Shown: piece after piece, positions 35,497 through 46,518 of the stretch
Layout of the letters: each line of letters starts with the position of its first letter
Position numbering within the stretch: the stretch's first letter is position 1
Source: Xanthobacter autotrophicus
GTDB taxonomy: Bacteria > Pseudomonadota > Alphaproteobacteria > Rhizobiales > Xanthobacteraceae
NCBI RefSeq assembly: GCF_005871085.1
Contig: NZ_VAUP01000041.1
Coordinates: 62,001-126,000, forward strand
Reading direction: 5' to 3'
Length of the DNA: 64,000 bases
Made by a program: the position numbers and the translations under genes
The notes under the pieces: model-generated
Seen by the model: only the letters and a program-made list of their open reading frames with translations
What the model was told of the DNA's origin: nothing
The model's database searches: none

Positions 35497-37380
35497 ATGA
35501 TCGTTCTCGACGATATTTCCCTGCGCCTCGCCGGGCGCCTGCTCATCGACCATGCCTCTGTCGCCATTCCGGAGAATGCGCGGGTGGGCGTGGTGGGGCG
35601 CAACGGCTCGGGCAAGACCACCCTGTTCAAGGCCATCGTCGGCGAGCTTGAGCTGGAGAGCGGCGCGGTGCGCCTGCCCAACCGCACCCGCATCGGCCGC
35701 GTGGCGCAGGAAGCGCCCGCCGGTCCCGACAGCCTTCTGGAGCGCGTGCTCGCCGCCGACACCGAGCGCGCCCAGCTGCTGCACGAGCGCGAGACCACCC
35801 ATGACCCCATGCGCATGGGCGAGATCGAGATGCGGCTCCTCGACATCGACGCCCATTCGGCGCCGGCGCGGGCGGCCACCATTCTCGCCGGCCTCGGCTT
35901 CGACGAGAGCGCGCAGCAGCGGCCGTGCTCGGAATTTTCCGGCGGCTGGCGCATGCGCGTGGCCCTCGCCGCCCTGCTCTTCACCGAGCCGGACCTGCTG
36001 CTGCTCGACGAGCCCACCAACTATCTCGACCTTGAAGGCACCCTGTGGCTGCAGGACTACCTGGCGCATTATCCGCGCACGGTGATCCTCATCTCCCATG
36101 ACCGCGACCTGCTCGACGAGAGCGTGGACCACATCCTCCACCTCACCGGCAAGAAGCTGACCCTCTACAAGGGCGGCTTCACCGGCTTCGACCGCCAGCG
36201 CCGCGAGCGGCTGCTGCTCGACCAGAAGGCGCGCAAGAAGCAGGAGATGCAGCGCGCCCACATGGAATCCTTCGTGGCCCGCTTCCGCGCCAAGGCCACC
36301 AAGGCCAAGCAGGCCCAATCGCGCCTGAAAGCCCTCGCCCGCATGGAGCCTTTGGCCGCCCAGGTGAGCGAGGAGGCGGCCGCCATCTCCATCCGCCACC
36401 CGGAGCGGCTGCTGTCCCCGCCCATCCTGGTGATGAACCATGTGTCGGTGGGCTATGTCCCGGGCAAGCCCATCCTGCGCAATCTCGATCTTCGCATCGA
36501 CGAGGACGACCGCATCGCCCTGCTCGGTCCCAACGGCAACGGCAAGTCCACCTTCGCCAAGCTCATCGCCGGCCGGCTGGAGGCCGAAAGCGGCAGCGTG
36601 GTGCGCGCCGACAAGCTGGAAGTGGCCTATCTCGCCCAGCACCAGATCGACGAATTGATCCCCGGCGACAGCCCGGCCCAGCATGTGCGCAAGCTCATGC
36701 CCGACGCGCCAGAGGCGCGGGTGCGCGGGCGGGCGGCGGAGATGGGCTTTTCAGGCGGTGCCGCCGACACCAAGGTGTCGGCCCTCTCGGGCGGCGAGAA
36801 GGCGCGGCTGCTGCTGGGCCTTGCCACCTTCCACGGGCCGCACCTCCTGATCCTCGACGAGCCCACCAACCATCTGGACATCGAGGCCCGCGCCGCCCTC
36901 ATCGAGGCCATCAACGACTATCCCGGCGCCGTCATCCTGGTCTCCCACGACCGGCACTTGCTGGAAGCCTGCGCCGACCAGCTCTGGCGGGTCTCCGGCG
37001 GCACCGTGAAGGCCTATGACGGCGACCTCGACCAGTACAAGCGCGAGGTGCTCTCCAAGTCCGACGGCGACCGCATGACCGATGCCGGCCGCAAGGACAA
37101 GGCCGAGCTGAAGAAGGACGGCACCCCGGCCGACGGCAAGCGGCGTGTCGCCACCGGACCCTTGAAGAAGCGCATCCGCGAGCTGGAAGCGGCCGTGGAG
37201 AAGCTGGAGAAGGAGATCGCCGGCATCGACGTTAAGCTTGCCGTGCCGGACCTCCACGCCAAGAAGCCCCTGGACGCCGCCCGCTTCGCCAAGGCCCGCG
37301 CCGAGGCGGTGGAGAAGCTGGCCCAGGTGGAAGAGGAATGGCTCGCCGTCAGCGCCGAGCTCGAGACCGCGGGCGGCTGA
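35497..37380 (+). CDS. ABC-F family ATPase (YheS/Uup-like)
   Basis: Soluble twin-ATPase of the ABC-F family, translation-associated rather than a transporter, 627 residues from ATG 35497. First domain: Walker A GRNGSGKTT (near 36), signature EFSGGWRMRVALA, Walker B LLLLDEPTNYLD. A Lys/Arg-rich linker (RFRAKATKAKQAQSRLKAL) follows, then the second domain: GPNGNGKST, ALSGGEKARLLL, LLILDEPTNHLD. The C-terminal end carries a coiled coil (KKRIRELEAAVEKLEKEIAG) like YheS and Uup. The subfamily is not certain. Its 3' end overlaps the convergent lysR by 32 bases. Confidence 0.92.
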   Translation: MIVLDDISLRLAGRLLIDHASVAIPENARVGVVGRNGSGKTTLFKAIVGELELESGAVRLPNRTRIGRVAQEAPAGPDSLLERVLAADTERAQLLHERETTHDPMRMGEIEMRLLDIDAHSAPARAATILAGLGFDESAQQRPCSEFSGGWRMRVALAALLFTEPDLLLLDEPTNYLDLEGTLWLQDYLAHYPRTVILISHDRDLLDESVDHILHLTGKKLTLYKGGFTGFDRQRRERLLLDQKARKKQEMQRAHMESFVARFRAKATKAKQAQSRLKALARMEPLAAQVSEEAAAISIRHPERLLSPPILVMNHVSVGYVPGKPILRNLDLRIDEDDRIALLGPNGNGKSTFAKLIAGRLEAESGSVVRADKLEVAYLAQHQIDELIPGDSPAQHVRKLMPDAPEARVRGRAAEMGFSGGAADTKVSALSGGEKARLLLGLATFHGPHLLILDEPTNHLDIEARAALIEAINDYPGAVILVSHDRHLLEACADQLWRVSGGTVKAYDGDLDQYKREVLSKSDGDRMTDAGRKDKAELKKDGTPADGKRRVATGPLKKRIRELEAAVEKLEKEIAGIDVKLAVPDLHAKKPLDAARFAKARAEAVEKLAQVEEEWLAVSAELETAGG

Positions 37381-38290
37381 CCGGCGCCGCCGCCGCGGCT
37401 TGCGCCCCCTCCGGTTCGCGGATCAGCGCCATCAGCGCCTGCGCCGCCCGCGAATGATAGCGGTCGGCATGCCGCAGCACATAGAAGCGCCGGGCCGGAA
37501 AGGTCAGGGGCAGCTGGCGCAGGGTGCCGGTGGCGAGGCCCGCCGCCGCCACGAGATCGGAGATCACGGTCGCCCCCGCTCCCGCCGCCACCGCGCTCAC
37601 CACCGCCTCGTTGGAGGGCAGCTCAAGCACCACCTTCAGCCCGCCGGGGTCGAGCCCGGAGGCCCGCAGCGCATCCTCGAACACCTGCCGCGTGCCCGAG
37701 CCCGGTTCACGGAGCACGAACGGCATGTCGAACAGATCGGCCGGGGCGATGGCGCGGCGTTCGGCGAAGGGACTGTCCGCCGCCACCACCAGCACCAGCC
37801 GGTCGCCGGGCACCGCGGTGCGGGCGAGCAGGGGCTCTTCCACCTCGCCCTCCACGAAGCCGAGGTCGGCGGCGCCCTCCCGCACTGCCGCGGTCACCTG
37901 CGTGGTGTTGCCGATGACCACCGACAGGGTGATGTCGGGATAGAGCGTGTGGAAGCGGTTGAGCACCGGCCCAAGCCAATAGTTAGCGATGGTCTGGCTG
38001 GCCTCCAGCGCCAGCCGCCCCCGCCGCAGGCCCGAGAGATCCGCGAGCACGGTCTCGGCGGCGGCGGCGCGGGCGAGCACCGCCTCGGCTTCCGGAACGA
38101 AGGCTTGGCCGGCCTCGGTCAATTCGATCCGCCGCCCCACCCGGTGGAACAAAGCGACGCCGCAGGACGCCTCCAGCGCCGCCACCGAGGCGCTCACCGC
38201 CGACTGGGTCATGTTCAGCCCTTCGGCCGCGCGCGTCATGTGCAGGGCGCGGGCGACGGCGACGAAGACCTTCAACTGCTCCAGCGTCAT
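37349..38290 (-). CDS. LysR-family regulator next to yeiH (YeiE-like)
   Basis: Transcription regulator of 313 residues. It has an N-terminal winged helix (MTLEQLKVFVAVARALHMTRAAEGLNMTQSAVSASVAALE; HTH about 18-37) and a periplasmic-binding-like effector domain from about residue 90 (LALEASQTIANYWLGPVLNRF). Placed downstream of a YeiH-type gene on the same strand; in E. coli yeiE and yeiH are neighbours, and CysB/CbbR-type regulators share this fold. The ATG is at the start of LysR similarity. Its stop lies within the 3' end of the convergent ABC-F gene. Confidence 0.87.
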   Translation of the reverse strand: MTLEQLKVFVAVARALHMTRAAEGLNMTQSAVSASVAALEASCGVALFHRVGRRIELTEAGQAFVPEAEAVLARAAAAETVLADLSGLRRGRLALEASQTIANYWLGPVLNRFHTLYPDITLSVVIGNTTQVTAAVREGAADLGFVEGEVEEPLLARTAVPGDRLVLVVAADSPFAERRAIAPADLFDMPFVLREPGSGTRQVFEDALRASGLDPGGLKVVLELPSNEAVVSAVAAGAGATVISDLVAAAGLATGTLRQLPLTFPARRFYVLRHADRYHSRAAQALMALIREPEGAQAAAAAPVSRPRSRARR

Positions 38291-38303
38291 GGACGCGCTC
38301 ACT

Positions 38304-38424
38304 TTGCTTCGCTCAGCCGCCGCGCGGGCTCTTGCCTCGCTCAAGCGCCGCGCGGGCTATCTTATGCCAACGGCCCCGGTCTGCGACCGCGCCGAGAGGG
38401 CACGCTCAGGCGCCGCGCGGGCTC
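38304..38424. repeat. Three direct copies of a 20-bp repeat
   Basis: GCTCAGCCGCCGCGCGGGCT (38311-38330), GCTCAAGCGCCGCGCGGGCT (38339-38358) and GCTCAGGCGCCGCGCGGGCT (38404-38423) are near-identical. They occupy the lysR-yeiH gap; the third reaches the yeiH stop codon. The core GCCGCGCGGGC is itself nearly palindromic. Confidence 0.8.
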
Positions 38425-39493
38425 ACATGAGCGTCTTGATGAGGATAAAGCTCAGCGCCGAGATGAACAGCCAGGCCACGGCGCCGAGCAGCAGGGGCTT
38501 TGCCCCCTTGAGGCGCAGCTTGGCGATGTCGGTCTCCAGCCCCATGGCCCCCAGCGCCACCGCCAGCAGGAAGGTGGTGACAATGGCGATGTTGGCCTTC
38601 ACCTCCTCCGGCACCACGCCGGTGGAATTCAGCATGACCATGCCGATGAAGCCGAACACGAACCACGGCATGGGCGGGCTGGCGTGGCCGGCATCCTTGT
38701 CGCCGCGGGCGCGCCAGATGGCGGCGGCGCCGAGGCCGATGACGAGGGGCGCCAGCAGCATCACCCGCGAGAGCTTGGCCACGGTGCCGAACTCGCCGGC
38801 CTGCTGGCCGCCCTGGAAGGCGGCGGCCACCACCTGCGCCACCTCGTGGATGGAGGCGCCGGTCCACAGGCCGAAGGCGTGGGCATCGAGGCCGGTGTAG
38901 GGCAGCAGCGCCGGCATGATCAGCATGGAGAGCGAGCCGAACACGGTCACACAGGCCACCGCATAGGCCACATCCTCGTCCGATCCGCGCGTCACCGTAT
39001 TGGTGGCGATCACCGCCGAGGCGCCGCAGATGGCGGTTCCGGCCGCGATCAGTTCCGACAATTGCCGGTCCACGCCCATGAGCTTGCCAAGCCAGCGGGT
39101 GGCGAAGAAGGTGGCGAACAGCGTTCCGGCCACGATGGAAAAGCCGACGAACCCGACCGAACGCACCTGCGCGAAGGTGAGTTGCAGGCCCAAAAGCACG
39201 ATGGCGAAGCGCAGGATGCGGCGCAGCGCGAACTTCACCCCCGGCCTGGCGATGGCGGGCGTGCCGAAAATGTTGTGAAGGCCCATGCCGATGACGATGG
39301 CCAGCACCAGCGGGCTCACCAGCCCCATGCCGGGGATCTGCCGCAGGCCATAGGCCGCCGCCGCGATGAGCACCGTCAGCCCCAGCCCCGGGAGGATGCC
39401 ACCGAACGCTCCGGTCAGGAAATGGGGCGCGCGGGGAAGCGGCGGAGCAGCTTCCACGATGGCGGCGGGATCGGACAACGGCTTGTCGGTCAT
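38423..39493 (-). CDS. YeiH/UPF0324-type membrane transporter (putative sulfate exporter family)
   Basis: Polytopic inner-membrane protein of 356 residues with about ten helices. [64 protein letters not shown] and [11 protein letters not shown] are YeiH/UPF0324 signatures. ATG 39493 has AGGAGC before it; an upstream ATG has poor context. The family is annotated as putative sulfate exporters, but the true substrate is not settled. A LysR regulator lies directly downstream. Confidence 0.88.
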
Positions 39494-39562
39494 GACGGGC
39501 TCCTCGGACGCCGCGAGGATCGCGCCGCAGCAAGCATCGATCAAATGAGTTATATTTCTACA

Positions 39563-39578
39563 ATTAATCGAAATTAAT
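39563..39578. promoter_or_regulatory. Perfect AT-rich dyad upstream of yeiH (candidate operator)
   Basis: ATTAAT-CGAA-ATTAAT is a perfect inverted repeat in a strongly AT-rich island (39540-39590), 70 bases upstream of yeiH. Its size suits a dimeric regulator such as the LysR protein encoded next door. Confidence 0.45.
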
Positions 39579-39686: not shown

Positions 39687-40460
39687 TCACCGCTCGGCGA
39701 AGGCCTTCTCCACCACGAAGGTCTCGGGCCGGTGCCCCGCCCCTTCCGCAAAGGCGCGGCGCTCCAGAAGGTCGCGGGTGTCGGCGATCATCTGCGGCGA
39801 GCCGCAGAGCATCACCCGGTCAAAGGCCGGGTCGAGGTCGGGCAGGCCGAGGTCGGCGAAGAGTTGGCCGCTCTCCATCAGGTCGGTGACGCGGCCACGG
39901 TTGCGGAACGGCTCGCGCGTCACAGTGGGATAGTGCAGCAGCTGGGTTGAGGCATAGTCGCCGAGGAAATCGTGGGCCTTCAGCGCCGCCACCACGTCCT
40001 CGCCATAGGCCAGCTCCGCCACCTCGCGGCAGCCGTGCACCAGGATGATGTGCTCGAAGCGCTCATAGGCCTCCGGATCCTTGGCGATGGAGACGAACGG
40101 CGCCAGCCCGGTGCCGGTGGCCAGAAGATAGAGCCGCTTGCCCGGCTTCAGATTATCGAGCAGCAGCGTGCCCGTGGGCCGCCGCCCCACCAGGATGGGA
40201 TCGCCCGGCTGCAGCATCTGCAGGCGCGAGGTGAGCGGGCCATCCGGTACCTTGATGGAGAAGAATTCCAGCTGATCCTCGTGGGGGGCGCAGGCCAGCG
40301 AATAGGCGCGCAGCAGCGGGCGTTCGCCCTCCGGCAGCCCGATCATGGTGAACTGGCCGCTCTTGAAGCGGAACGCCGGATCGCGCGTGGCGGTGAAGGA
40401 GAACAGGCGGTCGGTCCAGTGGCGAACCTCAAGGACGGTCTCGGTGTTGAGAGTGCTCAT
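39687..40460 (-). CDS. fpr: Ferredoxin-NADP+ reductase
   Basis: FAD flavoprotein of 257 residues moving electrons between NADPH and ferredoxin or flavodoxin. FRFKSGQFTMIGL and RAYSLACAPHE bind FAD; GTGLAPFVSIAKDPEAYERF binds NADP. The C-terminal FVVEKAFAER matches the bacterial subclass I Fpr type. It starts about 10 bases after fdxA, a likely redox partner in the same operon. Confidence 0.93.
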   Translation of the reverse strand: MSTLNTETVLEVRHWTDRLFSFTATRDPAFRFKSGQFTMIGLPEGERPLLRAYSLACAPHEDQLEFFSIKVPDGPLTSRLQMLQPGDPILVGRRPTGTLLLDNLKPGKRLYLLATGTGLAPFVSIAKDPEAYERFEHIILVHGCREVAELAYGEDVVAALKAHDFLGDYASTQLLHYPTVTREPFRNRGRVTDLMESGQLFADLGLPDLDPAFDRVMLCGSPQMIADTRDLLERRAFAEGAGHRPETFVVEKAFAER

Positions 40461-40470
40461 CGCCGCCCCC

Positions 40471-40833
40471 TCACGCCGCACCGGACGCGGACGGGCTGGT
40501 CGCCTGCCCCGGCGCGGGCGAGAACGCGCTCTCGAACTTGTCGGCCACGTCCATCCACCGGGCGGCGTCCGCCGGCGGCTCCTTCTTCTCGGCGATGTTG
40601 GGCCACAGGGCGGCATACTGCGCGTTCAGCGCGATCCACGGCCCGGCCTCCGGCGCGGTGTCGGCAGCGATGGCGGCGGCAGGGCATTCCGGCTCACAGA
40701 CGCCGCAGTCGATGCACTCGTCCGGATTGATGACAAGCATGTTCTCGCCCTCGTAGAAGCAATCCACCGGGCAGACGGCGACGCAATCCATGAATTTGCA
40801 GCGGATGCAGCTGTCAGTAACGACATAGGCCAT
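40471..40833 (-). CDS. fdxA: 7Fe ferredoxin FdxA
   Basis: Small [3Fe-4S][4Fe-4S] ferredoxin, 120 residues. [17 protein letters not shown] supplies the first cluster set and [16 protein letters not shown] the second, in the FdxA arrangement. The C-terminal half ([20 protein letters not shown]) is the usual FdxA tail, extended by an Ala/Ser/Pro end. It is transcribed with fpr. Confidence 0.95.
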
Positions 40834-41128
40834 GGGGCAGGTCCTGTTAAGTCTGCAACAAGACTAGCCCGGCGGCGGCGCAAGACTGAGTGTTAAGGCC
40901 CTGCGGGGTCAATTAATTGCAGTCTTTTATCTTGGGACAAACCGGACGGCCGTCATCATCCGGCGCAGCCGCCGCGTCCGGCGCGCAAGAGCTGAAGAGG
41001 CGCAGCAAGCGGAGGGGTGGACCCTCCGGTCGAGCCGGAGGGTGACGGAGGGATAGGGGAATAGGGGATTTGGGGGGCGGCAGGCGGCCGCGCCCCCCCA
41101 ATCGCGGCGGCGCACGCCAACCCTGCCC
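40834..41128. other. Spacer between the ABC importer operon and fdxA
   Basis: No gene is seen. The fdxA side has an AT-rich patch near 40905-40935 that may be its promoter. A perfect palindrome (listed separately) and a G-rich run at 41040-41100 fill the rest. Confidence 0.4.
41021..41043. repeat. REP-like palindrome
   Basis: Perfect 9-bp arms ACCCTCCGG/CCGGAGGGT around TCGAG. It lies 85 bases after the stop of the ABC ATPase gene, without a T-run. The CCTCCGGxCGAxCCGGAGG style is a common intergenic palindrome in this group. Confidence 0.6.
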
Positions 41129-42076
41129 TCACACCACCTGGGCGAGGTTCGAGCCGTTCAGGTTCACCGCGAGGCCCTTCAGGGCATCCTCGTTCAGCTC
41201 GCCACCCATGGCCTTCAGGCTTTCCTCGCGGATCAACGCCCCGAGATCGGCCCGCAGGCGGATGAATTCCGGCGAGAGCTGCAAGGCCGCATCGCGCGGG
41301 CGGGGCAGCGGAACCGTCACCTCGGCCTTGATGCAGCCGGGGCGCGCGGTCATCACATAGATGCGGTCGGAGAGGAAAATCGCCTCGTCGATGTCGTGGG
41401 TCACGAACAGCACCGAGATGCCCAGCCGCTGCCACAGGTTGGTGAGGATCTGCTGCATGATCACCCGGGTCTGGGCGTCGAGCGCGCCGAACGGCTCGTC
41501 CAGCAGCAGCACCTTCGGCCCCGTGGCGAGCGCCCGCACGATGCCCACCCGCTGCTTCATGCCGCCGGACAGCCGGTCGGGATAATGGTTCTCGAAGGCC
41601 GACAGGCCGGCGAGCCCCAGCAGGGTGCGCGCGGCCACCGCCCGCTCGGAGCGGCCCATGCCGCGCATCTTGAGTCCGAATTCCACATTCTCCCGCACCG
41701 TCTTCCACGGAAACAGGGAATATTGCTGGAACACCATGCCCCGGTCGGCGGAGGGGCCTTTGACCGCTTCCCCGTCCACGGTGACCTGGCCGGCGGTGGG
41801 CTTCAGGAAGCCCGCCACCGCATTGAGCAAGGTAGACTTGCCACAGCCCGAAGGGCCGATGATGGACACGAACTCGCCGGGGTTCACCACCAGGTCGGCG
41901 TCGCTCACCGCGATCACCGCGCCGTCGATGGTGTCGTAGGCCAGCTCGAAGCCGGTGACCTCGATGAGCCCAGTCTGGGTGGGGGCCGTTGCGGGAATGG
42001 CCATGGCGCGCCTCGCTTTCAAAGAACTCGCGTCTGGAACGCTCATCCGGGGAGCGCTCATGGGGGTGGCGCTCAT
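41129..42076 (-). CDS. ABC transporter ATPase, nitrate/sulfonate/taurine family
   Basis: ATP-binding subunit of an SsuB/TauB/NrtD-like importer, 315 residues. The ATG overlaps the permease stop (ATGA), so about 35 residues precede the domain. Walker A GPSGCGKST, Q-loop VFQQYSLFPWKTV, signature RLSGGMKQRVGI and Walker B LLLDEPFGALD are intact. The C-terminal end has an extra helical stretch (PEFIRLRADLGALIREES). Last gene of a three-gene operon; substrate unknown. Confidence 0.9.
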   Translation of the reverse strand: MSATPMSAPRMSVPDASSLKARRAMAIPATAPTQTGLIEVTGFELAYDTIDGAVIAVSDADLVVNPGEFVSIIGPSGCGKSTLLNAVAGFLKPTAGQVTVDGEAVKGPSADRGMVFQQYSLFPWKTVRENVEFGLKMRGMGRSERAVAARTLLGLAGLSAFENHYPDRLSGGMKQRVGIVRALATGPKVLLLDEPFGALDAQTRVIMQQILTNLWQRLGISVLFVTHDIDEAIFLSDRIYVMTARPGCIKAEVTVPLPRPRDAALQLSPEFIRLRADLGALIREESLKAMGGELNEDALKGLAVNLNGSNLAQVV

Positions 42077-43071
42077 TTGGTGCGGGACCACGGCGTCACC
42101 GCCCGCCCGGCCAGCCGGATGAGGAAGGAGGAGGCGAGCCCCAGCACGCCGATGGTGATCATGCCCAGCGCGATGTCCGGATACTGCACCAGGGAGTAGG
42201 CTTCCCACGTGAAGTAGCCGATGCCGAACTGGCCGGAGATCATCTCCGCCGCGATCAGCGACACCCAGGCCACCCCCATGCCCACGGTGAGGCCGGTGAA
42301 GACCTGCGGCAGCACCGCGGGGAAATAGACCTCGCGGAAGGTGGCGCGCTCGCTGGCCCCGAGACAGCGCGCGGCGCGCACCAGCACCTCGTCCACATTC
42401 GCCATGCCGTGCAATGTGTTGATGAGGATGGGAAAGAACGCGCCGAGGAAGGTGATGAAGACGATGCTCTGCTCGTTGGTGGGCCACAGCATGATGGCCA
42501 TGGGCACCCAGGCGATGGCCGGAATGGGCCGCAGCACCTCGCACACGGGGAATACGAACGCCTTCAGCAGCGCGAACCGTCCCATGAGCATCCCCAGCGG
42601 CACCGCCACCAGCGCCGCAATGGCGAAGCCGATGAAGATGCGGCGGCACGACATGGCGATGTGCTCGAAGAACGCACCGGTGGAGAAGGCGGTGCGCGCG
42701 CTCTCCAGCACCTGCTCCGGCGAAGGCACGTTCAGGAAGCGCACGTACAGGTCCATGCGGTTCACGGTGACCACGTGCCAGGCGAGGATGAACAGGCTGA
42801 TGGCCAGCGCCCCGAGCAGCGTCGCCCGGATCGCCGGCATGTTCAGCCTCAGCCAGCGCCGGGCAAGGCCGGGCAGCGAGCCGTCCGCCGTCACCACCTG
42901 AGCGACCGGCGCACGCTCCGGCCGCAGCAGGATGGCCCCCGACGCCGTGACCGGCGCCGACGGCGCGGCGGAAGGCACGCAGGGTGCGCCGTCCGCCGGG
43001 GTACCGGCAACATGCAGGGGCGTGTGCATCTTCACGTTGGATTTCACCGCTGCGCGCGTCATGGCGCTCAC
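42073..43071 (-). CDS. ABC transporter permease, nitrate/sulfonate/taurine family
   Basis: Inner-membrane permease of 332 residues with an unusually long N-terminal extension (about 70 residues before the first helix). The coupling-loop motif AARCLGASERATFREVYFPAVLPQVFTG and GMGVAWVSLIAAEMISG are hallmarks of the SsuC/TauC/NrtB group. GTG start overlaps the binding-protein stop by 4 bases and its stop overlaps the ATPase start by 4 bases: tight translational coupling. Confidence 0.9.
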   Translation of the reverse strand: MSAMTRAAVKSNVKMHTPLHVAGTPADGAPCVPSAAPSAPVTASGAILLRPERAPVAQVVTADGSLPGLARRWLRLNMPAIRATLLGALAISLFILAWHVVTVNRMDLYVRFLNVPSPEQVLESARTAFSTGAFFEHIAMSCRRIFIGFAIAALVAVPLGMLMGRFALLKAFVFPVCEVLRPIPAIAWVPMAIMLWPTNEQSIVFITFLGAFFPILINTLHGMANVDEVLVRAARCLGASERATFREVYFPAVLPQVFTGLTVGMGVAWVSLIAAEMISGQFGIGYFTWEAYSLVQYPDIALGMITIGVLGLASSFLIRLAGRAVTPWSRTK

Positions 43072-44522
43072 CCGCGCCCGGCGGTGGCGGCCTTCAGCGC
43101 ATCGCCGAAGCTCATCACCTTGCCGCCGCCCTTGGCCGCCGCCGCTTCCGCGTCGACCTTGAGCATGAAGGGCTTGATGTCGCTCTTGCCGTCCTTCGCG
43201 GTGACCGCATAGAAGGCGTCGGACGCGAACAGCTTGATGCCGCGGGCGGTATCGAACAGATAGGTCATGTTGGCCTTCTTGCCCTGGGCGGTCAGCTCGG
43301 CCAGCGCGCCCAGCGTGCAGGCGGCGCTGGAATAGGGCTTGATGCCCTCGCCCTCGATCCAGATCTCACCGGCCTGGCGCGGCTCGGTGATCTTCACCTT
43401 GCAGAAGCTGTCGTCCCCGCTCACCTCGTAATTGGCGAGGCTCTTGAGCTGCGCCTCGTAATCGAGGCCCAATTCCTTGAAGGCCTGGCGCACATAGGTG
43501 TCGTTGACCCAGGCGTTGACGTCGAATTCCTTCATGCGGCCAAGCTTCTGCAGCACGGCGGCATCTTCGGCCGCGTCGGCCACGAGCTGGGGCTTGATGG
43601 TGGGATCCATGGTCATGATGCCACCCGGGCCGAGGAAGATGTAGACCACTTCCTTGTCGATGCCGGTCCACTTGGCGATCTTCTCGGCAGCGCCCTGCGG
43701 ATCCTTGCGGACCCAGTCATTGGCCTCGATGACCGCCTTGAGATAGGCCACCACGACTTCCGGATACTTCTGCGCGAAATCGGTGCGCACCACCACGCCG
43801 TGCCAGGTGGGGGCGTTGGTCTCCACCCCGTCGAAGATCTTGCGGGCGAAGCCGCGGAACGGCAGCAGCTCGGCGAAGGGGACGAAATCGGCGTGGGCGT
43901 CGATCTTCTTTTCCTGGAGGTTGGTGGAGCCCACCTCCGGCGACTGGCTCACCAGCTTGAAATAGTCGTTGGGCCAGCCCTTGTCCTGCATGGCCTTGAG
44001 AACCATGCCGTGGGCCGCCGAGCCGAACGGCACACTCAGCACCTTCCCCTTCAGGTCGGACAGCTCGTAATAGGGCGAATCCTTGTGCACCACCACGCCG
44101 TTGCCGGAGCCATGGATGTTGTAGGCCGCCACCGCGATGAGCTGCGACTTGGACTGCGGATTGGACTGGAAGGTATAACCGTTCACCACCAGCGGAAAAT
44201 CGCCCATGCCGCCGAACTGGAGCTTGTCCGCCATCATCCCGTTGGTAACGGGCGGGCCGGAGGTGAAATTCTGCCAGTCGATGGTGTAGGCGACGTTGGC
44301 GTACTTGCCGTCCTTCGGCAGGTACTTCTCCAGCAGCTTGAGCTCCTTGATGACCACGCCCGTGGTCACCGTGTTGGTGGTGGTGTCCTGGGTGCCGATG
44401 CCGAAGCTGATGGCGGTCTGGGCCTGGACGGGGGCAGCAGCAAAAGCGCAGCTCGCGGTGAGGGCGAAGGCAAGGGTGCGAAGCAGGCGGGAGCGAAAAG
44501 GATTGGCGCAAAATGGGGTCAT
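43068..44522 (-). CDS. ABC substrate-binding protein with extra NosL-like C-terminal domain
   Basis: Periplasmic binding protein of 484 residues, about 150 longer than SsuA/TauA. Signal peptide 1-36 (FALTASCAFAAAPVQAQ). Residues 37-360 are the NMT1/SsuA-like fold (GTQDTTTNTVTTGVVIKELK, SVPFGSAAHGMVLKAM, THADFVPF-type region). From residue 374 a separate region follows (CKVKITEPRQAGEIWIEG, KPYSSAACTLGALAEL, FDTARGIKLFASDAFYAV, KGGGKVMSFGDAL). Its pattern, especially the end, resembles the copper-binding NosL family. ATG 44522 has AAGAGGTGG before it. The upstream Crp/Fnr gene is co-oriented. Substrate unknown. Confidence 0.8.
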   Translation of the reverse strand: MTPFCANPFRSRLLRTLAFALTASCAFAAAPVQAQTAISFGIGTQDTTTNTVTTGVVIKELKLLEKYLPKDGKYANVAYTIDWQNFTSGPPVTNGMMADKLQFGGMGDFPLVVNGYTFQSNPQSKSQLIAVAAYNIHGSGNGVVVHKDSPYYELSDLKGKVLSVPFGSAAHGMVLKAMQDKGWPNDYFKLVSQSPEVGSTNLQEKKIDAHADFVPFAELLPFRGFARKIFDGVETNAPTWHGVVVRTDFAQKYPEVVVAYLKAVIEANDWVRKDPQGAAEKIAKWTGIDKEVVYIFLGPGGIMTMDPTIKPQLVADAAEDAAVLQKLGRMKEFDVNAWVNDTYVRQAFKELGLDYEAQLKSLANYEVSGDDSFCKVKITEPRQAGEIWIEGEGIKPYSSAACTLGALAELTAQGKKANMTYLFDTARGIKLFASDAFYAVTAKDGKSDIKPFMLKVDAEAAAAKGGGKVMSFGDALKAATAGRG

Positions 44523-44703
44523 CGGATCCACCTCTTGGGGCAAAGACGGCTCTCGACGGTGATCTTCGGGCGCCAGCTTCCATTCATTCAAAGGAAGAAG
44601 CGGCCGGGCTGTCGATTAGTTGCCTCCTTTAAGGACCCGCCTCTTTCTTCATCACTGGATGCCTGCCTGACCGGCTCAGTGTCCGCACACCGAGGCCGCG
44701 CCC

Positions 44704-45483
44704 TCAGCGATCGCCGCGCATGGCGTGGAGCGCCGCCACGTCGTAGATCACCATCCGGGCCTTTTCGGCCTTCAGAATCCCCTGCTCTTGCAAACGCTTG
44801 AGGCTGATGGTGACCCATTGGCGCGTCGCCCCCACCATGTGCGCGAGGTCGGCATGGGTGAAGGCCGACCCGATGACGATGGCGCCATCTTCCCGCACGC
44901 CATAGGCGTCCGTGAGATGCAGAAGCAGGTGCGCGAGGCGCTCCGTCACCGAACGGGTGCCCAGCATCTGGGCAAGGGCCGAATAGCATTTTCCCTTGAA
45001 GGTGAGCCCCTCAATGAGGCCGATGGCGAAGGACGGGATCTGCGCGATGAGGCGGCGCAGGGTCTTTCCGGTCAGATGCACGACCACGGAATTGGTGGCG
45101 GCGACGCCGGACCACACATGATGCCCCTGCCCGAACAGCTCGGGCCCACCGACGAAATTGCCCGAATTCCAGTAAGCCAAAGTGATCTCGCGGCCCGAGG
45201 GCGCGATATAGAAGACACGGATGCGGCCGCTCTCGATCAGGAAGATGCCGTCGTGAGGCGTGCCCTGCGAGAACAGCATCTTGCCGCGATAGACCACGCG
45301 CTTCTGGCCTTCGCGCAGAACCTCCTCCCGCTCCTTGGCGGTGAGGCGCTGGAACAACAGTGGCGGCCCGTTGGTGAGGGCAGCATTTTCCGTGAGCAGG
45401 AGCGCCTGCGCGGGCGCGGCGCCCGCCAGCAGCGGCGACGTGGCGACGACGGGAAGCTGCCCGTGGGGCGGTGCATTCAGCAT
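44704..45483 (-). CDS. Crp/Fnr-family transcription regulator
   Basis: A 259-residue regulator with a cyclic-nucleotide-binding-like domain (about 60-170: RVVYRGKMLFSQGTPHDGIF, GREITLAYWNSGNFVGGPE) and a C-terminal winged helix (FTHADLAHMVGATRQWVTISLKRLQEQG). It has only one Cys (GKCYSAL) and lacks the N-terminal Cys cluster of Fnr, so it is not an Fe-S oxygen sensor. It is upstream of the ABC importer on the same strand, 181 bases away, and probably controls it. ATG 45483 has GGGAGAG before it. Effector unknown. Confidence 0.87.
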   Translation of the reverse strand: MLNAPPHGQLPVVATSPLLAGAAPAQALLLTENAALTNGPPLLFQRLTAKEREEVLREGQKRVVYRGKMLFSQGTPHDGIFLIESGRIRVFYIAPSGREITLAYWNSGNFVGGPELFGQGHHVWSGVAATNSVVVHLTGKTLRRLIAQIPSFAIGLIEGLTFKGKCYSALAQMLGTRSVTERLAHLLLHLTDAYGVREDGAIVIGSAFTHADLAHMVGATRQWVTISLKRLQEQGILKAEKARMVIYDVAALHAMRGDR

Positions 45484-45581
45484 GGCATCTCTCCCGGTTG
45501 GATCAATTCTCAACCGCAAGAAGCGTACCATTACATATTTAAGCTAATCCATAGTTTTAATTAATTTTAGTGCGATGCCTC

Positions 45582-45613
45582 GAAACGAGAAACGGCGGCC
45601 CTGCGGCCGCCGT
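45582..45613 (-). terminator. Terminator of the ATP synthase operon
   Basis: On the minus strand a 9-bp stem ACGGCGGCC/GGCCGCCGT with a GCAG loop is followed by TTCTCGTTTCG, about 100 bases after the atpC stop. Confidence 0.8.
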
Positions 45614-45708
45614 CCGACTGTTCTGGTGTATCGCCACGCCGATCCCCCGCCATGAGGCCGCGTCCGGTTATCCGGCCCGCAAAACCCAACCGCGGAGCGC
45701 GAATGGCC

Positions 45709-46128
45709 TCAATGGCCGCCGGCGGCCCGTCCGCCCTCAAGGACGGCATAGACCTGCTCGAGATCAGCGAGCTGCCGCGACGCGCGCTGGCGGGTCTCGT
45801 CGGTGGTGGCGTCGGCCACGTCTTCCTTGGCATCCTGGATCTGCTGGTGAAGGGCGCCGAGATCCAGCTCATCCAGCGGTTTCGCCTCTTCCGCAAGGAT
45901 GGTAAGGCCGGCCGGGTTCACCTCGGCAAAGCCGCCCCGCACGAAATAGGCGCGCGGCGCCCCGTCACCCTTGATGGTGAGAATGCCGGGCTTGAGCATG
46001 CCGATGAAGGGGGCATGGCCCGCCAGCACGCCGAATTCGCCTTCCGCGCCGGGCACGATCACCTCGGTCACGGCACCGGAAAACACGAGCCGCTCGGGCG
46101 AGACCAGCTCAAAGGGTAAGGTCGCCAT
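45709..46128 (-). CDS. atpC: ATP synthase F1 epsilon subunit
   Basis: Central-stalk subunit that couples rotation and inhibits ATP hydrolysis, 139 residues. MATLPFELVSPERLVFSGAVTEVIVPGAEGEFGVL is the N-terminal beta-barrel; QQIQDAKEDVADATTDETRQ begins the C-terminal helices. The ATG lies at the start of similarity; frames before it are non-coding. Unusually it is 525 bases from atpD with another small gene between them. Confidence 0.95.
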   Translation of the reverse strand: MATLPFELVSPERLVFSGAVTEVIVPGAEGEFGVLAGHAPFIGMLKPGILTIKGDGAPRAYFVRGGFAEVNPAGLTILAEEAKPLDELDLGALHQQIQDAKEDVADATTDETRQRASRQLADLEQVYAVLEGGRAAGGH

Positions 46129-46281
46129 AATTCTCGTCTCCGGGTCGTCCCGAAAGGGAGGCGCCCCAAGATCGGGTGCTCCTCCGGGCGCCATCCAGCC
46201 TGGATGGACGCCCCCACTCCATGAAGGAAGACGGCTTCACCGCACAGGCCGATCAGCCCGGGCGCAGCCGCTTCCGTGACA

Positions 46282-46518
46282 TCAGCGCCGACGATCGGCC
46301 ACGAAGCCGACGCCGAGCCCGATGATCGCCCCTACCACGGCGGCCAGGCCAATGTGCCGGCCCTGCTCCGAGGTCAACCCGCCGCTCGGGCTTTCACCCT
46401 GCAGCTCGATGTTGAGGCCCGGCAGCCGGATCTCGGCGACCTGCGGCCGGGTGAGCCAGCCGGTGATGCCGCCGGCCAGAAGTCCCAGCACAAGGCCCAG
46501 GACCTTAATGTTCATCAT
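46282..46518 (-). CDS. Small two-helix membrane protein inside the atp operon
   Basis: A 78-residue unrecognised protein with hydrophobic helices at about residues 4-22 (IKVLGLVLGLLAGGITGWL) and 55-73 (HIGLAAVVGAIIGLGVGFVA), both Gly-rich, and a polar middle (PQVAEIRLPGLNIELQ). It ends in RRR. It starts MMNIK (two possible ATGs with GGGTAGGG upstream). It lies on the same strand between atpD and atpC, 135 bases after atpD and 153 before atpC. Canonical operons have nothing here. Function unknown. Confidence 0.7.
   Translation of the reverse strand: MMNIKVLGLVLGLLAGGITGWLTRPQVAEIRLPGLNIELQGESPSGGLTSEQGRHIGLAAVVGAIIGLGVGFVADRRR

Follow-up and report, generated by a model that had tools for sequence, protein, structure and literature searches.

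We analysed a stretch of 64,000 nucleotides from Xanthobacter autotrophicus (NCBI RefSeq assembly GCF_005871085.1, contig NZ_VAUP01000041.1, positions 62,001 to 126,000 of the forward strand), called the window below, and found that one of its genes (43068..44522, minus strand) encodes a 484-residue fusion of an ATP-binding cassette (ABC) transporter receptor of the SsuA/TauA type with a C-terminal domain that is, judged by sequence profile and predicted fold, homologous to NosL, the Cu(I) chaperone of nitrous oxide reductase. The gene is defined by an open frame and by domain matches in both parts, and its translation terminates in AKGGGKVMSFGDALKAATAGRG. Fusions of this kind occur in three phyla (Pseudomonadota, Cyanobacteriota and Actinomycetota). 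The fusion, its permease and its ATPase stay together, and the fusion co-occurs almost one-to-one with a flavoprotein. We give even chances to the interpretation that these genes form an importer for a sulfonate-like oxyanion that feeds a ferredoxin-linked complex resembling adenosine 5'-phosphosulfate (APS) reductase, with a NosL fold that serves as a module without a copper role.

A NosL-like domain on an ABC receptor

An initial annotation of this DNA had proposed that the receptor is about 150 residues too long and ends in a separate NosL-like block. The SsuA family model TIGR01728 aligns with residues 52–343 (E 2.6e-35, 122.1 bits, below its cut-off of 163.5), leaving about 140 residues past the end of the SsuA similarity, so the excess length is borne out. 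Pfam NMT1 matches the protein above its cut-off, and a model of the full-length protein (predicted local distance difference test, pLDDT, 70.9) has TauA and SsuA as its top Foldseek matches. From the SsuA alignment and the Foldseek matches we place the receptor part at residues ~36–352 (43467..44417, minus strand), with borders that are our own, and the C-terminal domain (C-domain) at residues ~370–484 (43071..43415, minus strand).

The assignment of the C-domain to NosL draws on Pfam, a profile search of the PDB, structure prediction, Foldseek and alignment. All 44 of the aligned C-domains match the Pfam NosL family (PF05573; best E 6.5e-10), as did 20 of 20 in an earlier, smaller set. The window protein's own match is weak but spans most of the profile (E 0.15 at full length, 0.0042 as an isolated domain), and its full-length score is 12.9 bits against a Pfam cut-off of 24. 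When ten full-length fusions were compared with the same family, two cyanobacterial proteins passed the cut-off, six fell below it, and two actinobacterial proteins had no match; the C-domains of both actinobacterial proteins were found by the fusion family's own profile (E 7.7e-13 and 8.4e-7, with the search confined to eight stretches). When the C-domain family profile was run against the whole set of PDB sequences, with E up to 10 allowed, it returned four distinct sequences, all of them NosL (best 7og7, 6e-6). A model of residues 364–484 built from 38 sequences is confident (pLDDT 92.2, predicted template modelling score 0.87), and NosL structures take the first six places in its Foldseek list (E 5.9e-5 to 1.4e-2, TMq 0.52–0.71), five of them with E no higher than 0.001; MerB comes seventh, at E 1.2.

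These results exclude simpler explanations of the extra length. An accident of annotation or assembly was ruled out by the same architecture in many genomes, and a disordered tail by the confidence of the C-domain model. A plain long C-terminus of an SsuA/TauA receptor was likewise ruled out, since the SsuA model ends at residue 343, the C-domain does not align with SsuA/TauA proteins, and its profile finds only NosL in the PDB. Both the search for PF05573 and the Foldseek comparison thus returned the family that the initial annotation had named. Purifying selection acts on the C-domain, though less strongly than on the receptor part: the ratio of nonsynonymous to synonymous substitution rates (dN/dS) was 0.07–0.41 in the C-domain versus 0.04–0.13 in the receptor part, in nine of nine sequence pairs.

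The closest known counterpart is therefore NosL itself (PF05573; 7og7, 7osf, 7znq, 2hpu), which has a sequence profile and a fold in common with the C-domain. The titles of 7osf and 7znq show NosL together with an ABC transporter, NosDFY, and the fusion too belongs to an ABC transporter; it differs in that the domain is joined to the receptor and in the copper motif described below. NrtA/CmpA-type receptors belong to the same wider receptor class and stand lower in the Foldseek list, but the C-terminal domain of the fusion is NosL-like instead.

Loss of the copper motif

According to an excerpt of PMC6530538, a CXM motif with a conserved Cys and Met is what NosL uses to bind Cu(I). The two cysteines that the initial annotation had picked out, Cys374 in FCKVKI (codon 43401-43403, minus strand) and Cys402 in SAAC (codon 43317-43319, minus strand), both lie within the C-domain and are the sole cysteines of the protein past the presumed signal peptide. 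In the PDB profile alignment Cys374 aligns with the Cys of the CXM motif. Residue counts were made over 49 fusions, a set that includes near-identical pairs. Both cysteines are present in 29 of the 49 and none carries just one, while the remaining 20 lack both and have no other Cys in the C-domain. The position of the CXM Met holds Met in none of the 49 (one has a gap there), so that the motif is absent as such throughout the set (Cys 29/49, Met 0/49). The genes that accompany the fusion are unchanged in the Cys-less loci. With the motif lost, we ruled out a copper chaperone as the general role of the C-domain, and the metallochaperone-like function suggested initially is not supported as a general one.

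That Cys374 and Cys402 are either both present or both absent points to a disulfide, or to a two-Cys site acquired or lost as a whole. Where present the pair is probably a disulfide, and it may have a redox or metal role in the 29 members that bear it. Other residues of the C-domain are kept more widely, including Trp388 (49/49), Lys430 (47/49, Arg in two), Phe452 (48), Gly428 (48) and Tyr421 (47); in the profile alignments Lys430 lies opposite hydrophobic residues of NosL. No stand-alone NosL above cut-off was found in the X. autotrophicus genome. A search of this genome for the NosZ propeller domain gave no match, but its control likewise gave none.

Distribution and conserved partners

The same domain order was found in many genomes. 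Across 61 genomes (that of X. autotrophicus and its relatives), 12 had matches above 400 bits, all of which extended to residue 472 or beyond. The other listed matches reached at most 79 bits and ended at residue 367 or earlier, save three close-relative fragments on short contigs, and no close receptor without the C-domain was seen in these 61 genomes. A scan of contigs gave 12 named fusion loci in Xanthobacter, Aquabacter, Bradyrhizobium, Methylopila and three metagenome-assembled genomes. Plasmid records, where 24 of 294 matching records cover at least 80% of the query, contain the fusion in Methylobacterium, Variovorax, Paraburkholderia, Cupriavidus, Rhizobium, Sinorhizobium, Mesorhizobium, Methylocystis and two cyanobacteria, among others; among six further plasmid stretches picked by their flavoprotein, it was found in Acinetobacter, Tsukamurella and Nonomuraea.

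Genome-wide searches quantified the association with the flavoprotein. With the first ten candidates per genome scored, the C-domain profile found matches at E up to 0.001 in 30 of a sample of 398 Pseudomonadota genomes. Twenty of these have matches of the size of a fusion (open frames of 466–623 residues, E 3.7e-26 or better), and the other ten have only weak matches in frames of 59–285 residues. In a second search of the same 398 genomes, with the first three candidates scored, the flavoprotein exceeded its cut-off in 21. All 20 fusion genomes, which span ten genera and are thus not independent, are among these 21, and 377 genomes have neither gene. In a class-level sample of 385 genomes, 13 had matches to this profile at E up to 0.01, and in four of these genomes (X. 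autotrophicus included) the matches are strong (E 2.6e-26 or better, frames of 466–522 residues).

We then compared the neighbourhoods of 41 fusion loci; one (L063) is truncated where its contig stops and the stretches differ in length, so that all counts are minima. A permease and an ATPase lie near the fusion in 41 of 41. The PRK08275-type flavoprotein is present in 31 stretches, a HEAT-repeat protein in 30, a small ferredoxin in 29 and a DUF971 protein in 28; the flavoprotein gene usually has the other three as its neighbours. A Crp-family regulator accompanies 30 loci and a GntR regulator 12 (three have both). The regulator that the initial annotation placed upstream of the fusion is thus conserved in most loci, with GntR instead in nine and neither in two. 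YeiH-like genes occur in 10 of the 41, and amidases are among the neighbours in some loci.

In the window the fusion, permease, ATPase, Crp-type regulator, FdxA, reductase and YeiH genes are all on the minus strand. The permease (42073..43071; PF00528, E 2.5e-26) has a start that overlaps the receptor stop by 4 nt. The ATPase (41129..42076), which is similar to an annotated ATPase of M. radiotolerans, has its ATG at 42076 and overlaps the permease stop by 4 nt; of the two overlaps with the receptor gene claimed initially, only that of the permease is present. Upstream of the fusion lies the Crp/Fnr-type regulator (44704..45531; PF00027 and PF13545), with a single Cys and so cysteine-poor as described. 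Beyond the ATPase follow the ferredoxin FdxA (40471..40833; NF045490, E 3.2e-47, over cut-off) and a ferredoxin–nicotinamide adenine dinucleotide phosphate (NADP) reductase (39687..40520; NF008178, E 4.2e-47, below cut-off). A YeiH-family putative sulfate exporter (38423..39544; PF03601, E 1.9e-79; TIGR00698 below cut-off) is of uncertain membership in the system; with a LysR regulator it follows the cluster (37349-39544), and this pair also occurs together in five loci (L031, L032, L033, L039 and L064). The flavoprotein, small ferredoxin, HEAT-repeat and DUF971 genes of this genome sit on another contig.

Several loci show variant arrangements. In one genome (G734), the ABC genes are absent and a gene for a major facilitator superfamily (MFS) transporter stands beside the flavoprotein operon (L131:7083-8609, minus strand); it may replace the importer. 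On the A. caldus plasmid pTcM1 (L134:10574-14035), genes for FdxA and for a flavin adenine dinucleotide (FAD)-dependent oxidoreductase, the latter very long at 3462 nt, come after the flavoprotein operon. In Tsukamurella the flavoprotein gene beside the fusion measures 2682 nt (L135:8959-11640), long enough to be the flavoprotein–HEAT fusion known as PRK13800. Leptolyngbya encodes a 678-residue regulator (L118:13313-15349, minus strand) that combines a LysR helix-turn-helix, an effector domain and an NMT1-type receptor domain, with a similar gene in Pseudanabaena (L121).

Receptor pocket and partner enzyme

TauA and SsuA, the receptors of taurine and alkanesulfonate importers, share their fold with the receptor part of the fusion. 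We aligned the pockets of the 49 members with E. coli K-12 TauA and SsuA at low identity, taking the roles of TauA residues from an excerpt of PMC6906117. The sulfonate-anchoring positions are shared: Gln45 and Gly89 are present in 49/49, Ser88 in 47/49 and Gly107 in 35/49 (Ala in 14). In contrast to TauA, the amine site is replaced, since the amine-binding Glu106 and Asp205 correspond to Asn141 and His241, each in 49/49; Trp176 corresponds to Phe213, also in 49/49. At this low identity, we read the site as a putative pocket for a sulfonate-like group without an amine. The fusion further differs from TauA in its additional NosL-like domain and in scoring below the SsuA and taurine cut-offs.

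The partner flavoprotein has as its closest PDB relative the alpha subunit of 3'-phosphoadenosine 5'-phosphosulfate (PAPS) reductase (8a8o, E 1.6e-62), followed by the APS reductase subunit AprA (1jnr, 4e-40) and succinate dehydrogenase (1nek, 1.8e-22). The enzyme of the 8a8o type, from M. thermolithotrophicus, resembles dissimilatory APS reductase and reduces PAPS, as described in part of PMC10322725. Homology of the flavoprotein to AprA and 8a8o extends over most of its length. The small ferredoxin (77 residues) matches AprB (1.1e-7) and the PAPS reductase beta subunit (9.6e-5), but more weakly than it does methanogen polyferredoxins (E 1.9e-13). Unlike AprAB and 8a8o, the flavoprotein is accompanied by HEAT-repeat and DUF971 proteins and by an ABC importer. 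The initial annotation had suggested uptake of an anion or a sulfur compound; this APS/PAPS-reductase-like partner lends some support to a putative link with sulfur.

A candidate shared operator

A 13-nt operator-like site, GCAACTAATCGAC, lies about 90 nt upstream of the fusion gene (44611..44623, minus strand). A related site, GCAATTAATTGAC, is found upstream of fdxA (40908..40920, minus strand), and a weak one with two mismatches beside the YeiH gene (39560..39572, plus strand). The fusion-upstream site recurs exactly in 28 of 140 loci, including Xanthobacter, Bradyrhizobium and Methylobacterium, several of these loci covering the same gene. Its perfect palindrome, GCAAYTARTTGC, occurs exactly twice in the X. 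autotrophicus genome, before the flavoprotein operon on the other contig and, in a second SsuA-type ABC operon, some 70 nt ahead of an ATG. We infer that the Crp-type neighbour binds these sites.

For each gene in a first group of 24 stretches, the 200 nt preceding it were scored for the pattern GCAAYTARTTGC; promoter positions are estimates from alignments, and the pattern and mismatch limits were picked after sites had been seen. At up to two mismatches, it precedes the fusion in 15/23 cases, DUF971 in 16/17, the flavoprotein in 8/17, FdxA in 8/14 and the reductase in 5/19, whereas shuffled upstream regions carry it in about 1–2%. In the same group, it was absent upstream of HEAT (0/14), FdB (0/14), permease (0/23), ATPase (0/35), Crp (0/23), YeiH (0/9) and LysR (0/6) genes; with no YeiH upstream region carrying the palindromic pattern, the site at 39560..39572 may be due to chance. 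The window as a whole contains three sites at up to two mismatches versus 0.63 expected, a number reached in 2 of 100 shuffles. Counted over the entire genome at up to one mismatch, the pattern shows no enrichment (6 occurrences versus 14 for a reversed control), so the argument for an operator rests on where the sites are located.

Other elements upstream of the fusion were considered. An RNA element was dropped because the conserved block is the site common to several promoters; an Rfam scan of 41000-46300 gave a single match, below the gathering threshold, elsewhere and on the other strand. A leader peptide was dropped because the frame in the window has a stop directly before the motif. 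A scan for exact 6-nt arms gave nothing consistent.

The second SsuA-type operon (L148:2600-6732, on contig C4 of the same genome) comprises a receptor, a permease, an ATPase and an amidase resembling allophanate hydrolase. A similar set lies beside the fusion locus in M. radiotolerans. In the L148 stretch of X. autotrophicus, a short open frame (L148:7507-8136, minus strand) also resembles by eye the C-terminal half of a taurine-type receptor and is possibly a gene remnant.

Proposed system and alternative explanations

In the system that we propose, the fusion would be the periplasmic receptor of an ABC importer whose substrate would be an oxyanion, most probably an amine-free organosulfonate. 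A cytoplasmic complex of the flavoprotein and the small ferredoxin would reduce this oxyanion or a product of it, with electrons passing from reduced NADP through the ferredoxin reductase and FdxA, and the Crp-type protein would control the regulon. The part of which we are least certain is the C-domain, where the NosL fold may serve as a non-copper module that binds the ligand or a partner, or may dock the receptor on the permease; the latter option is drawn from free NosL in its complex with NosDFY. A stronger formulation, possible if somewhat doubtful, is that of an assimilatory system shared across phyla, in which a dedicated importer, its receptor equipped with a NosL-fold second binding module, passes an oxyanion (probably an organosulfonate) to a ferredoxin-fed, APS-reductase-like enzyme for cleavage or reduction by undescribed chemistry, the system having a Crp-type regulator of its own.

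Several observations weigh against an oxyanion importer coupled to such a complex. The receptor stays under the cut-off of each of the SsuA, taurine and sulfonate models (69.8 versus 304.25 for the taurine model), and five other members likewise score too low. Gln45 aligns with the Gln of SsuA, but Gln30 of TauA lies two columns off in this low-identity alignment. FdxA is present in just 16 of the 41 stretches and the ferredoxin reductase in 21. The fusion was not found in three plasmid stretches that bear the flavoprotein (A. caldus, Nostoc and M. japonicum), and G734 is the one genome without it among the 21 with the flavoprotein; it keeps the GntR, flavoprotein, ferredoxin, HEAT and DUF971 genes. 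At up to one mismatch the operator pattern persists before DUF971 (still 16/17) but falls to 2/23 before the fusion, and it is nearly absent in a second group of 18 stretches (fusion 3/18). Finally, the flavoprotein has Leu at the position of AfAprA Arg265, which is Arg in both 1jnr and 8a8o. We take Arg265 to have a role in substrate binding, and the substrate of the flavoprotein therefore probably differs; together with the rank of the polyferredoxins ahead of AprB, this means that the chemistry may not be sulfur chemistry.

These last points raise the alternative of a substrate without sulfur, for instance an unsaturated or dicarboxylic acid or another oxyanion, handled by fumarate-reductase-like chemistry, with the likeness to SsuA/TauA reflecting ancestry only. 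The flavoprotein does belong to the wider fumarate reductase/succinate dehydrogenase/AprA family, and besides the Leu, the MFS gene adjoining the flavoprotein operon of G734 in place of ABC genes and the amidases beside some loci are compatible with such a substrate. We nevertheless consider it unlikely, as the flavoprotein stands nearest to PAPS and APS reductases among solved structures, the pocket keeps the sulfonate-anchoring positions, and a perfect copy of the site stands before the second SsuA-type operon.

Two further alternatives concern the C-domain. A working site for Cu(I) or another soft metal, through which the receptor would couple anion uptake to metal supply or sensing, appears quite improbable. 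It would account for the NosL homology and fold, for the alignment of Cys374 with the Cys of the CXM motif (the motif as given in the excerpt of PMC6530538) and for the Cys374/Cys402 pair in 29 of 49 members, but not for the Met missing from all 49 or for the 20 Cys-less members, whose loci keep the same partners. That the C-domain is a passive structural appendage without a binding role is very unlikely in our estimation: its dN/dS above that of the receptor part in every pair fits such a role, against which stand its retention in three phyla, the lack of any close receptor without it among the 61 relatives, and the conservation of Trp388 and Lys430. The preferred interpretation remains an importer for a sulfonate-like oxyanion with a non-copper NosL module.

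Novelty and significance

Each of the parts is of a known kind; their combination and the conserved partners are new to us. Within the sections of open-licence PMC literature covered, there was no recognisable description of the receptor–NosL fusion or of the gene set, and excerpts on Rhodococcus, P. phymatum, Bradyrhizobium and the NosL-family proteins of Sulfurospirillum/Haloferax contained nothing tied to the gene set. In some members Pfam would reveal the two domains together, so that domain databases may already contain the architecture without comment. Of the 25 matches listed for the plasmid collection, 19 are named only "ABC transporter substrate-binding protein", and the other six have no listed gene; such generic naming makes the conserved two-domain receptor and its surrounding gene set invisible in annotation.

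The compact gene set and the defined candidate operator make the proposal directly testable in culturable strains. If it is true, soil and plant-associated bacteria and some cyanobacteria would have an unstudied route to sulfur, or to another element, by oxyanion reduction, and the NosL fold would be in use outside copper delivery.

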